Source: Clostridia bacterium
GTDB lineage: Bacteria; Bacillota; Clostridia; Oscillospirales; Acutalibacteraceae
NCBI GenBank assembly: GCA_017421045.1
Contig: JAFQMC010000022.1
Span: 1 to 35,915 of the forward strand
Direction: 5' to 3'
Length of the DNA stretch: 35,915 nucleotides
Shown here: one piece after another, positions 29,432-33,476 of the stretch
How the letters are laid out: each line of letters opens with the position of its first letter
Numbering within the stretch: the first letter of the stretch is position 1
Made by a program: the position numbers and the translations under genes
The notes under the pieces: model-generated
Told to the model about the DNA's origin: nothing
What the model saw: only the letters and a program-made list of their open reading frames with translations
Databases searched by the model: none

Positions 29432-30556
29432 ATGGGAGCGAAAAAAGCAATTAAAAGATGCGGTGGGACATCCCATCTTCAATCAGGTGCAGATATGGCA
29501 CTTCCCCTAATACTTATCAGCAGTGTGATTCTATCCCTTTCATATATAGCAGACCTGCTGAACGCAGGTGCTACCGAAGCAGGGATCGGTGAAACATCTT
29601 CTATATCTCAATTTCTTTACGGAATCGGTTCGATAATATCGGATACTGTATATCCACTCATCGCCGCTGGTGTAGCTGTCAGCATATGTGGCAGACGCGG
29701 ATTCTGGGCAGGTATTACAGGGGGAATACTTACAGGCTCGGGTGTGACGCTGTCTTATCCTTTGGGAGATTTTTCGGCTATGTCGGGTTTATGGGGCAGT
29801 GTTGCGATAGGCTTTGCGGCAGGAAGAATCTGTGAACTAACAGATGGGTTGTTATTATCGAAGGAACGCAAGTCGGGAATATTAACCGCACTTAGTTTTA
29901 CTCTCAGTTTTTTGCTTACGGCAGGTGTTGCTATTGTATTAGACAATCTGTGCTACATTATCAACATATGGTCATCATCCGGGTTAGCTGTAATAAGCAG
30001 AGTTAGTTTTACGTTTGTCGCTTTACTTCTTGGGATTATGATGAACGCAGATGTTTCAGGGCCTATGTATCTGGCAGGATACATTTTCGGCACAGCCTCA
30101 ATCTCTACCGGTGACCCTGAAATTATGGCATCGGTTATGGCGACGGCTGTAATTCCTCCCATAAGCATTGGTTTATGTGCGTTAGTTTTCAGAAGCAGGT
30201 TTACAGAAAAAGAAAGATACTGCGCATATATAGGTTTGTTGTGTGGTATTTGCGGTATAACTCAGAGCGCTGTATATCACTACCTGAAAAGACCACTCAG
30301 AACAGCCCTGCCTTGCATCGTCGGAGGAGTTGTTGCGTCTATGCTTTCTATGATGTTTCAGTGCAGTGTAAGTTTGCCTGCAGGAGGACTTCTCATAATT
30401 GGTGCAGTAAGCAACCCGTTGTACTTTTTGCTATCTGTTCTTTGCGGAGTATTTACGGCAACTACTATTATGGGACTGTTGCTGAGACCGGCAGAAAGTC
30501 ACAAAGAAAGTAAAACCGAAGATACACAGATGCAAACTCAGAGTACTACTGCGTAA
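29432..30556 (+). CDS. Orphan fructose-type PTS EIIC-like membrane protein
   Basis: 374-aa polytopic protein (about nine to ten helices) that follows the EIIC domain of fructose-family PTS permeases: YPLIAAGVAVSICGRRGFWAGITGG, MNADVSGPMYLAGYIFG (in known members GPVNKAAYAFG) and IPPISIGLCALVF, then GICGITQSAVYHY. The last motif is the equivalent of GITEGAIPF, which holds the sugar-contacting glutamate; here it is Gln, and the rest of the motif is altered too. No EIIA or EIIB domain is present or adjacent, so phosphorylation by the PTS cannot be assumed. It may work as a facilitator or sensor. ATG with AAAGGAG. Diverges from a PfkB kinase. Confidence 0.82.
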   Translation: MGAKKAIKRCGGTSHLQSGADMALPLILISSVILSLSYIADLLNAGATEAGIGETSSISQFLYGIGSIISDTVYPLIAAGVAVSICGRRGFWAGITGGILTGSGVTLSYPLGDFSAMSGLWGSVAIGFAAGRICELTDGLLLSKERKSGILTALSFTLSFLLTAGVAIVLDNLCYIINIWSSSGLAVISRVSFTFVALLLGIMMNADVSGPMYLAGYIFGTASISTGDPEIMASVMATAVIPPISIGLCALVFRSRFTEKERYCAYIGLLCGICGITQSAVYHYLKRPLRTALPCIVGGVVASMLSMMFQCSVSLPAGGLLIIGAVSNPLYFLLSVLCGVFTATTIMGLLLRPAESHKESKTEDTQMQTQSTTA

Positions 30557-30603: not shown

Positions 30604-31641
30604 TTAGATAATTTTCCCTCCTGCTACTACGGTATCATCCTGATAGAGCACCAAAGACTGACCGGAAGTAACAGCTCGCTGGGGAGCGTCGAAGCGGACA
30701 CAGAGTCTGTTTTCTTCATCAACATAAGCGACACCTGACTGCTCACGTTGATTGTAACGAACTCTGGCTGTAACAGTTATGGGATTTGTTATTTCTTTGA
30801 CAGAAATATAGTTCACTTCATCAGCAACAACAAGATTACTCATCAGGTCTTCGCTGAAGCCAAGAGTAACAGTGTTTTTCTGCATATCCTTGGAAATTAC
30901 ATACATAGGCTGAGCAAGCGCAAGTCCGAGACCTTTCCGCTGACCGCGGGTATAGCAGACAGCACCCTTATGCTTACCGAGAACCTTTCCGTCCTTGTCT
31001 ACAAAATCTCCTTCTTCCGTCACTACACCGCAATGCTCAGTGAGATAGTCATAGTAGTTGCCTGAAATGAAGCATATATCCTGACTATCTTTTTTATGAG
31101 CTGTTAAAAGTCCCCGAGTCAAGGCTATATCGCGGACAGCGTCCTTGCTGAGTTCACCTATCGGCAGGAGAAGCCGGGAGAGCATCTCCTGTGTAAGATT
31201 ATACAGAACATAACTCTGGTCCTTGGATGTATCAACACCCTTTTTCAGCAGGTATCTGCCTGATATACTATCAAAACCTACACGGGCATAGTGACCTGTA
31301 GCAACGTAGTCAAAACCCTCTTTGTCAGCATAGTCAAAGACAAAAGGAAGTTTGACATAGCGGTTGCAATCCACGCAGGGGTTTGGAGTGAGTCCCTCTG
31401 AATATGCCTTGGCAAAGCGGTCTATTACCTGAAGCTTAAACTCGCTACGATAGTCGGGATTGACAAAGGAGATTCCAAGCTGCTCACAGAGTTTTTTTGC
31501 ATCCTCGGTATCTGTTGATTCTGTTTTGTCAAAAAGTCTGAGCATTATGCCTGTGACATCGTAACCCTTCTCTAACAAGAGATGAGCCGCAACGGCACTG
31601 TCTACACCACCGCTCAGAGCAACGAGAACTTTTTTTCTCAT
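30604..31641 (-). CDS. mnmA: tRNA-specific 2-thiouridylase MnmA
   Basis: 345-aa enzyme that places sulfur at position 2 of wobble uridine 34 in tRNA-Lys, -Glu and -Gln. N-terminal PP-loop ALSGGVDSA (8-16), active-site cysteines C89 in NPCVDCN and C190 in DICFISG, the block SKDQSYVLYNLTQ (139-151), and the C-terminal domain with YTRGQRKGLGL and VRYNQR. The ATG lies 10 bases after an AGGAG site; the two flank a small hairpin, AGGAG-ATTA-CTCCT, that could hide the ribosome site. Its promoter diverges from pnuC. Length is normal. Confidence 0.96.
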   Translation of the reverse strand: MRKKVLVALSGGVDSAVAAHLLLEKGYDVTGIMLRLFDKTESTDTEDAKKLCEQLGISFVNPDYRSEFKLQVIDRFAKAYSEGLTPNPCVDCNRYVKLPFVFDYADKEGFDYVATGHYARVGFDSISGRYLLKKGVDTSKDQSYVLYNLTQEMLSRLLLPIGELSKDAVRDIALTRGLLTAHKKDSQDICFISGNYYDYLTEHCGVVTEEGDFVDKDGKVLGKHKGAVCYTRGQRKGLGLALAQPMYVISKDMQKNTVTLGFSEDLMSNLVVADEVNYISVKEITNPITVTARVRYNQREQSGVAYVDEENRLCVRFDAPQRAVTSGQSLVLYQDDTVVAGGKII

Positions 31642-31677
31642 GAGGAGTAATCTCCTATACTAAATAATCTGTTAAAC

Positions 31678-31707
31678 ATATTATCACAGCAGAAAAAAAC
31701 TTGTCAA
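31678..31707 (-). promoter_or_regulatory. Sigma-A promoter of mnmA
   Basis: Minus strand TTGACA (31702-31707), 18-base spacer, TAATAT (31678-31683). Confidence 0.8.
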
Positions 31708-31742
31708 GGAAATAAAAGCACTAAACTCCTAAACATTTGGTC

Positions 31743-31771
31743 TTGACAACCTGGATTATACTGAATATAAT
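31743..31771 (+). promoter_or_regulatory. Strong sigma-A promoter of pnuC
   Basis: TTGACA (31743-31748), 17-base spacer, TATAAT (31766-31771): a full consensus match. It gives a leader of about 110 bases before the pnuC GTG. Confidence 0.92.
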
Positions 31772-31777
31772 AAGCAC

Positions 31778-31887
31778 GACAGAAAAATATCAACTGCCAC
31801 CGGGTAGTGTAATGCGTAGCATTCGTGACACATCGTTAGGTCTTAGAAGATGTGTTGACGAGTGTTTTTTTATTTAGGAGTGGTTTT
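31778..31887 (+). ncRNA. Structured leader of pnuC: candidate riboswitch with terminator
   Basis: Three hairpins can be drawn in the transcribed leader. A: ACTGCC (31793-31798) with GGTAGT (31803-31808), loop of 4, one G-U. B: AATGC (31811-31815) with GCATT (31819-31823), loop GTA. C: a terminator in which 31819-31834 pairs with 31849-31865 (16 bp, three G-U pairs, one bulged G at 31857), followed by seven T (31865-31871). Hairpins B and C share bases 31819-31823, so they exclude each other. The ribosome site AGGAG follows at 31876-31880. This is the layout of a transcription-attenuating riboswitch. The class was not recognised; the PnuC neighbour makes an NAD+/nicotinamide-riboside sensor the leading hypothesis. 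Confidence 0.65.
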
Positions 31888-32595
31888 GTGAATAAGATGA
31901 AAGCAACGTTTTTATCCCTTACAAAATTTGAAATAGGACTTTGGATTTTTTCTCTGGTTATTGTTAGCGGTTCGTTCCTGATATTTCACAGCAAAGATAT
32001 ACTGACACTGATAGCTTCGCTGATTGGTGTAACTGCACTTATTTTTGTCGCAAAAGGAAACGCCTTGGGTCAGATACTGACCATTGTCTTTGCGGTGTTT
32101 TATGGGATAATCTCCTTCGGATGCAGGTACTACGGAGAGATGATAACATACCTGGGAATGACGGCGCCGATGGCGCTTGTTGCATTTATAAACTGGCTGA
32201 GGCATCCGTACAAGGATAGTGCCGAGGTAGAAGTGAGCAGTATATCTAAGAAACAGCTTCTATTTATGATACTGTCGAGCATTGGCGTTACTGCACTGTT
32301 TTACTTTATTCTGAGAGAGCTTGGAAATGCCTCTCTCGTAATTAGCACTGTATCAATAACCACCAGCTATCTTGCATCTTATCTTACGGCGATCAGAAGT
32401 CCCTACTATGCCCTCGCCTATGCCGCAAACGACGTGATACTCATTATACTCTGGATAATCGCCTCGGTTCAGAATATTAACAACACTCCGATGATTGCTT
32501 GCTTTGTCATGTTCTTTGCAAACGATATGTACGGCTTTTTCAACTGGAGAAGAATGAAAAAACATCAAAACAGAGAAAGAAAAAGTGCAGAATGA
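31888..32595 (+). CDS. pnuC: PnuC-like nicotinamide riboside transporter
   Basis: 235-aa membrane protein of the PnuC family, which imports nicotinamide riboside (or thiamine in PnuT members) by facilitated diffusion and metabolic trapping. Six to seven helices. Conserved features: FVAKGNALGQILTIVFAVFY (about 52-71), aromatic pattern around ISFGCRYYGEMITYLGMT, and the C-terminal NDMYGFFNWRRM. The longest frame starts at 31852 inside the terminator T run. The true start is the GTG at 31888, 7 bases after AGGAG; an ATG three codons later is an alternative. It sits behind a consensus promoter and a terminator-bearing leader, and its own terminator overlaps the stop. Ligand identity cannot be told from sequence. 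Confidence 0.93.
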   Translation: MNKMKATFLSLTKFEIGLWIFSLVIVSGSFLIFHSKDILTLIASLIGVTALIFVAKGNALGQILTIVFAVFYGIISFGCRYYGEMITYLGMTAPMALVAFINWLRHPYKDSAEVEVSSISKKQLLFMILSSIGVTALFYFILRELGNASLVISTVSITTSYLASYLTAIRSPYYALAYAANDVILIILWIIASVQNINNTPMIACFVMFFANDMYGFFNWRRMKKHQNRERKSAE

Positions 32596-32613
32596 TCTGC
32601 ACTTTATTTTTTT
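32582..32613 (+). terminator. Terminator of pnuC
   Basis: AAAGTGCAG (32582-32590) and CTGCACTTT (32597-32605) form a 9-bp stem around the stop codon, followed by ATTTTTTT. It also lies at the end of the convergent lysR-type gene. Confidence 0.9.
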
Positions 32614-33476
32614 GCATCATGAAGTTTTTGAACCAAAAAGTTATAAAAATCTTCTGCATATTCAGAACGAGGAAAATTCTCATAAAGCTTAACAATTATA
32701 TCTCGACTGCAATCGGGAGATTTGAGTGGTACAAGACTGACACTCGAGCTTACGGGTTCACCCCATGAAAACTCGGGCCAGAATGCAACTCCCGTGCCGG
32801 TGCTGACTATATTCTGCACCGCGGTGGGCGAATCGGATTCAAAGAGAATCTTCGGATAGAAACCTGCATCGTGACAGAAACCATTGCAAATTGCGCCGAA
32901 CAGCCGAGCGCTTGAAAGCATCACGAACTCTTCGTCGCGAAGCTCCGCAAGGCTTATTTCCTGCTGTTCTGCGTAAAGCGAAGACGATGGAACAGCAACA
33001 TAGATTCTCTCTTTGCAAACAGATTTTTTCACAGAGGGATTCGGCACTGTACGGTTTTGTCCGTTTGTTGTTATAACTATATCGCAGTCGAACTTCTGCA
33101 CGCTCTGTTCAAAATCAAAGACTGTATCGGGATGATTCTGCCTGTACTCAACTATTGTATTTATAACAAACGCAGAAGCTGCAAGTATATTGAGTCTGAC
33201 AGTTTTGCAAACTCTTTTTTTCATTCTGTCAATTTCTGTAGAGATGCTGTCAATATCCGGTAGTATGGTATCAAGACGGGTTTTAAGATACTCGCCATAG
33301 GGTGTGAGGACAATGTTTCTGCCTTTTTTTGAAAACAGCTCTACCCCAAGCTCCTGCTCCAAAGACTTTATCGCCTGAGACAACGCAGGCTGAGCAATGT
33401 TCATATACTCCGCCGCTTTGGTCATATGCTGAAATTTTGCTATGGTATAAAAATATCTCAGTTTCTGAAGTTCCAC
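32604..33476 (-). CDS. LysR-family transcriptional regulator
   Basis: 290-aa LysR-type regulator. N-terminal winged helix-turn-helix (1-60): FQHMTKAAEYMNIAQPALSQAIKSLEQELGVELF; the effector-binding domain covers 90-290. It starts at GTG (33474-33476) after GGAG. It diverges from a small SemiSWEET-like membrane gene with ~110 bases between them that hold two AT-rich inverted repeats (33491-33518), the usual setting for self-regulation and control of the divergent gene. Effector unknown. Confidence 0.95.
   Translation of the reverse strand: MELQKLRYFYTIAKFQHMTKAAEYMNIAQPALSQAIKSLEQELGVELFSKKGRNIVLTPYGEYLKTRLDTILPDIDSISTEIDRMKKRVCKTVRLNILAASAFVINTIVEYRQNHPDTVFDFEQSVQKFDCDIVITTNGQNRTVPNPSVKKSVCKERIYVAVPSSSLYAEQQEISLAELRDEEFVMLSSARLFGAICNGFCHDAGFYPKILFESDSPTAVQNIVSTGTGVAFWPEFSWGEPVSSSVSLVPLKSPDCSRDIIVKLYENFPRSEYAEDFYNFLVQKLHDAKK

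Follow-up and report, generated by a model that had tools for sequence, protein, structure and literature searches.

A probable guanidine-IV riboswitch leader with a candidate antiterminator hairpin before a PnuC-family transporter gene in a Clostridia bacterium

The DNA analysed here, called the window, is a 35,915-nucleotide stretch (positions 1 to 35,915, forward strand) of contig JAFQMC010000022.1 of a Clostridia bacterium (assembly GCA_017421045.1, Acutalibacteraceae). The leader under study lies between a tRNA thiouridylase-type gene and a gene for a PnuC-family transporter, and the features of the locus are as follows.

30604-31641, minus strand: tRNA thiouridylase-type gene upstream of the leader (Pfam tRNA_Me_trans), which we take to be mnmA
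31743-31771, plus strand: sigma-70-type promoter, TTGACA (31743), 17-nt spacer and TATAAT (31766-31771), 12 of 12 consensus letters
31793-31808, plus strand: P1 hairpin, 31793-31798 paired with 31803-31808, loop ACCG (from the fold; all 48 aligned RNAs keep the pairs)
31799-31801, plus strand: 5' half of the pseudoknot, ACC, part of the P1 loop ACCG
31811-31823, plus strand: linker hairpin AATGC-GTA-GCATT, candidate antiterminator (conservation, linked strand changes, swap control and computed folding)
31818-31871, plus strand: P2, an intrinsic terminator with 17 pairs, a 14-nt loop and seven T (fold and covariation)
31834-31849, plus strand: P2 loop core CGTTAGGTCTTAGAAG, letter-identical to the SMR-linked leader L183/L100
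31839-31841, plus strand: 3' half of the pseudoknot, GGT in the P2 loop (the pair covaries across 41 RNAs)
31876-31880, plus strand: AGGAG, ribosome binding site of pnuC (from the sequence)
31888-32595, plus strand: PnuC-family transporter gene, GTG start (31888), 235 aa, the regulated gene (family models)
32604-33476, minus strand: LysR-type regulator gene downstream of pnuC (Pfam scan of ORFs)

Four promoter-like sites were found in 31640-31900, whereas 50 shuffled sequences averaged 1.0 (sd 1.1); the site at 31743-31771 was the one perfect TTGACA/TATAAT promoter among them. An earlier sequence-only reading had described a consensus promoter, two small hairpins, a terminator, seven T, AGGAG and the GTG start, and all of these were present, the two small hairpins being P1 and the linker hairpin. 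The terminator it had placed at 31819-31834/31849-31865 was real, but its length was 17 pairs rather than 16, with 31818-31834 paired with 31849-31866 around a single bulged base at 31857. The seven-T run (31865-31871) shared the last two paired bases of the terminator. A simple terminator scan, which allows loops of at most 8, reported none in the window region because the loop of this terminator has 14 nt. The fold energy of the leader (31786-31872) was -27.7 kcal/mol, compared with -18.1 (sd 3.1) in shuffles (z -3.05), and 1 of 200 shuffles folded as well as the native sequence. The encoded protein matched PF04973 (NMN_transporter) with 112.7 bits (cut-off 27.3) and TIGR01528 with 72.1 bits (cut-off 42.45). 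Further upstream, a hydrophobic ORF of 374 aa (29432-30556, plus strand) had no Pfam match at E 0.001.

Conservation of the leader was analysed in 59 genomes, which comprised the window's own genome (68.2% complete) and 58 relatives. Protein search found pnuC in 30 of the 59 (31 matches, 30 loci), and the leader motif stood upstream of the gene at 24 of the 30 loci; the loci without it were L018, L026, L027 and the distant L028-L030 (21-26% identity). In an alignment of 48 RNAs, hand-picked from 96 less similar RNAs among the matches listed, 98.9% of 995 cells paired, compared with 31-40% in slid versions of the alignment. Fourteen of the 21 pairs changed on both sides, and double-changed cells numbered 111 against 26.9 in shuffles; the letters of the loops showed little variation. 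Of 41 RNAs (one reverse-strand match having been dropped from 42), 34 had A-U at the pseudoknot pair, 7 had G-C and none was mixed. The leader is therefore beyond chance, since the motif precedes 24 of 30 pnuC loci and its helices covary; an alignment of leaders of pnuC orthologues had been suggested as a check on the riboswitch idea, and the idea survived it.

Pattern scans extended the sample to at least 122 loci, at least 117 of them in named genomes and 5 viral. L031, L046, L093, L120 and L151 failed the relaxed pattern and look like chance matches. The relaxed hits among the matches listed numbered 141, of which 24 were the protein-found leaders and 117 came from the scans. Removal of L032 and L118, which look like chance matches, of L061 at a contig end, and of L072 and L075, whose terminators are odd or broken, left a set of 136 RNAs. 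Since the scan pattern fixes most letters of the P1 and P2 loops, the conservation of these letters in L031-L152 is circular. The 24 leaders that came from the protein search alone give independent evidence, and their unpaired loop letters were near-invariant; the linker letters lie outside the scan pattern. The leader was also observed on viral-filed contigs (L148, L149, L150 and L152), and in four cases a PnuC-like ORF followed it. A plasmid search in distant mode gave 11 records, the best of which (E 8e-6) was L222, an unannotated match on Subdoligranulum plasmid 11, the rest having E of at least 0.6. From the viral contigs and the plasmid record, the switch and its gene may travel on mobile elements.

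The genes downstream of the RNA were mostly, though not always, pnuC. Among the matches listed, blastp identified a PnuC-like downstream ORF in 118 of the 141 relaxed hits. Judged by their first residues, other downstream ORFs were SMR-like (L072, L100, L109 and L144), MATE-like (L040, L068 and L070) or GNAT-like (L034 and L141). A covariance model, R1, was built on 48 RNAs, mostly pnuC leaders, and it gave 28 matches in 27 of the 59 genomes, of which 24 were the protein-found pnuC leaders. In the order of the Lentilactobacillus genome that holds L100, R1 found the RNA in 41 of 295 genomes. The training set included the SMR-, MATE- and GNAT-linked L100, L109, L144, L040, L068, L070 and L034, so the recovery of these seven is not independent, while most of the hits in the 295 genomes are. 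A scan of 39 downstream ORFs, from 29 loci new in the 295-genome search and ten others, showed 21 SMR, 13 MATE, 2 B3_4, 1 GNAT, 1 PPDK_N and 1 IS605-type transposase. The two RNAs before B3/4-domain genes (L188 and L206, both in the L100 order) and a weaker R1 match before the PPDK_N ORF (L179) may point to further guanidine-linked functions or may be spurious. The Veillonella genome of L034 contained three such RNAs (L186, G061:C18 9677-9752; L187, 11281-11357; and L182), two of them 1.5 kb apart and each before a MATE gene, and one before a GNAT gene.

An analysis of the architecture and of these gene contexts indicates that the leader belongs to the guanidine-IV (GGAM-1/mepA motif) class. 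Guanidine-IV riboswitches are described as two hairpins whose loops pair in a pseudoknot, with the second hairpin acting as a terminator (PMC7736828). The window leader shares with the published descriptions (PMC7736828 and PMC12186494, as far as their available text goes) the two hairpins, the loop-loop pseudoknot and the 3' terminator hairpin with its T-run, as well as the conserved loop letters and the PnuC, SMR, MATE and GNAT genes downstream. The P1 loop and CGTTAGGTCTTAGAAG of the window were letter-identical to those of the leader L183/L100, which precedes an SMR gene of the sugE type in Lentilactobacillus. In L. lactis, mutation of G66, U67 or G72 abolished the guanidine response, and G62, which is 90% conserved, was also mutated (PMC7736828). 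When mapped by spacing from the text of that paper, G66, U67 and G72 corresponded to G31840, T31841 and G31846, a match at all three positions. By the same spacing G62 fell on T31836, and it matched if a one-base insertion was assumed; SMR-linked leaders showed CGTTAGG, CATTAGG, CAGTAGG and CG-TAGG alike around this site. Rfam 15 had no match in the window at gathering score, in agreement with the earlier statement that TPP, preQ1 and other common classes were not recognised, and around the leader at E up to 10 it returned just HIV_GSL3 and BTnc201, which were far below the cut-off and irrelevant. At gathering score it also missed the leaders at eight loci before SMR, MATE or GNAT genes, its only reports there being one TPP and one PyrR element outside the leaders. 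The silence of Rfam on the window thus says nothing on novelty, because it was equally silent on these eight leaders. The proposal of an unrecognised class did not hold, since the leader fits a published class for which PnuC and MATE were already named as targets in 2020, with guanidine export as a guess (PMC7736828, in the text available). Both the class and this type of target gene are known, and we are highly confident that the leader is a guanidine-IV riboswitch that would act as a guanidine-dependent ON switch; the anatomy, conservation, covariation, gene contexts and class identity were observed directly, and guanidine binding and ON behaviour come from publications on other members of the class.

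A related reading, which we consider improbable, is that the leader is a guanidine-IV-like variant (Gd4v or a pnuC-specific form) that works by the same mechanism but binds a different ligand, for example a substituted guanidine. A Gd4v motif without assigned ligand does exist, mainly in gut bacteria, and the architecture and the mechanism proposed for it are the same as those of the window leader (PMC9788692, as far as its text was available). Additionally, in the leader L006 before pnuC a T replaces the conserved G equivalent to G72, and this one relative may respond to a different ligand or may no longer sense one. According to the text of PMC9788692, Gd4v RNAs have another letter at a conserved G that SMR-linked guanidine-IV RNAs always keep, bear an additional hairpin on the terminator and mostly precede a transaminase gene. 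Judged from that text, the window differed in each respect, as its loops were letter-identical to those of the SMR-linked L183/L100, its fold showed an open 14-nt loop with no extra hairpin, and pnuC lay downstream.

It appears very improbable that the leader senses NAD+ or nicotinamide riboside (NR) and regulates an NR importer. This reading draws on the annotation of PnuC as an NR transporter, on the score of the window protein above the TIGR01528 cut-off, and on the NAD+-II riboswitch (pnuC motif), which stands before pnuC in Streptococcus as the window leader does (PMC7749635) and which the sequence-only reading had named as the natural comparison. As described in the available text of PMC7749635, NAD+-II is confined to Streptococcus and is a translational OFF switch whose pseudoknot covers the ribosome binding site, and no terminator is mentioned there. 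The window leader is a misfit to this description, as it has a terminator, its pseudoknot joins two hairpin loops at least 35 bases upstream of AGGAG, and it occurs in genomes other than Streptococcus. NAD+-II was rejected on this published architecture and host range, not on consensus letters. The occurrence of the same RNA before SMR, MATE and GNAT genes also argues against sensing of NAD+ or NR.

The protein itself gave further evidence on the substrate. The window PnuC belongs to the same family as the nicotinamide riboside transporter 4qtn (E 1.3e-22 over residues 10-228), but the leader-linked clade carried N91Y, D160S, V166T, W185Y, V188N and T192L at near-invariant positions, each in 99-100% of the 114 rows compared, in which the window row repeats L001 (4qtn chain numbering). 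The PnuC of a NadR operon in G021 kept the 4qtn letter at all six positions. The leaderless L026 and L027 also carry the clade letters, so these changes follow the protein clade and are not strictly tied to the switch. The close clade (E below 1e-60) was present in 27 of the 59 genomes, as was the R1 RNA, and 25 genomes had both; G012 and G017 had the gene without the RNA, G048 and G053 had the RNA without the gene, and G002 had both on different contigs. In G002 (L156, 1501-1580; L135; L018), unrelated sequence without a clear ORF followed the leader and a leaderless pnuC began another contig, possibly owing to an insertion or an assembly break that separated the switch from its gene. NadR (TIGR01526, E up to 1e-10) was found in 2 of the 59 genomes, both below the cut-off, and none was found by this model in the window's own genome at its 68.2% completeness. 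The match in G021 was NadR-like (191.2 bits, strict cut-off 341.15), and its ORF was overlapped by 26 bases by that of the preceding PnuC; G011, in which the leader is present, had a partial match of 43.5 bits over 143 of 325 positions. The one convincing NadR in the 59 genomes thus accompanied a PnuC without the leader. PF13521 misled as a stand-in for NR kinase, since of four ORFs the one in G021 was NadR-like and those in G024, G029 and G006 were not; its cross-table with the PnuC clade gave 6/27 against 10/32 (p 0.56). No SMR protein scored over the cut-off in any of the 59 genomes (weak matches at E 0.001 or better in 3), with a control search over the cut-off in 8 of 14 known genomes. 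The scarcity of NadR, the residue changes and the lack of SMR argue against import of NR through NadR and fit the published guess of guanidine export, and the leader-linked PnuC probably exports guanidine or a derivative. A leader whose RNA binds no ligand, whether a plain terminator or a protein-binding attenuator, would account for part of the fold through the terminator, but the near-invariant unpaired loop letters of the 24 protein-found leaders and the covarying pseudoknot pair make this scarcely credible.

The guanidine-IV leader of the window differs from the published descriptions, in the parts available, by its linker hairpin, which competes with the terminator base. The segment GCATT (31819-31823) is both the 3' strand of this hairpin and the 5' base of the terminator, as had been pointed out from the sequence. 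The single-molecule paper (PMC11611296) and the Gd4v paper (PMC9788692) describe the linker, in the text available, as flexible or single-stranded, and the titles and abstract openings of the guanidine-IV and mepA-motif literature tell of no such hairpin. A linker hairpin of at least 4 contiguous pairs (score of at least 3.5) was present in 112 of the 136 RNAs among the matches listed and in 21 of the 24 protein-found leaders. Where the terminator base was GCATC instead of GCATT, the linker was mostly GATGC instead of AATGC. In 98 RNAs among the matches listed, the linker and base letters were A-T in 75, G-C in 11, G-T in 5, T-T in 5 and A-C in 2; 17 RNAs with such a base but without the linker motif and 21 with another base were left out. 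Fisher's test on the 93 cases with A or G in the linker gave p 5e-9, a value that ignores relatedness; the PnuC tree implies at least 11 changes of the base and 15 of the linker letter, and supported branches held only 2-3 pairs. The 40 RNAs without GCATT had a mean best helix of 3.96, compared with 3.16 when linkers were swapped, and 0 of 2000 swaps reached as high. In computed folding, the hairpin had a probability above 0.5 before the 3' base strand of the terminator was made in 108 of 112 RNAs (0.92 in the window) and was gone afterwards in 112 of 112, consistent with the mutually exclusive hairpins of a riboswitch-type attenuator that had been proposed. In the L100 order, the hairpin was found in 4 of 29 distinct RNAs, and in 5 of 10 others of that set (identical rows dropped), so it is inessential to the class. 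Conserved in most clostridial examples and covarying, it is a possible antiterminator, and a lineage-specific one seems to us a reasonably likely reading.

In the published guanidine-IV riboswitches, read-through depends on guanidine and the kissing loops prevent the full terminator; how exactly this happens is not settled in the text of PMC7736828, which proposes that the linker is stretched. Published guanidine KD values for the class are about 0.06-0.2 mM, and the published GGAM-1 alignment contains 31 covarying pairs. For the window leader, the nascent RNA without ligand would form P1 and the complete terminator, and transcription would end at the T-run. With guanidine, the P1 loop (ACC) would kiss the P2 loop (GGU) and keep the terminator base from closing, so that pnuC would be transcribed. 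The linker hairpin AATGC/GCATT would hold the 5' strand of the terminator base, probably as an antiterminator, and the induced PnuC-family protein would most likely export guanidine or a close derivative. We tentatively suggest, at a level short of an even chance, that this distinct PnuC clade, which is common in gut and rumen Clostridia, is an exporter of guanidine or a derivative that replaces the missing SMR proteins, under an extra antiterminator hairpin that makes a three-strand switch undescribed for guanidine-IV in the text available.

The leader is identified as a known sensor that Rfam 15 leaves unreported, and what remains of interest is the PnuC clade together with the linker hairpin. 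The leader makes testable how guanidine-IV RNAs prevent termination. The result cautions against naming the leader-linked PnuC clade vitamin B3 importers, and guanidine export by PnuC-type proteins, a guess in the available text of PMC7736828, becomes testable.
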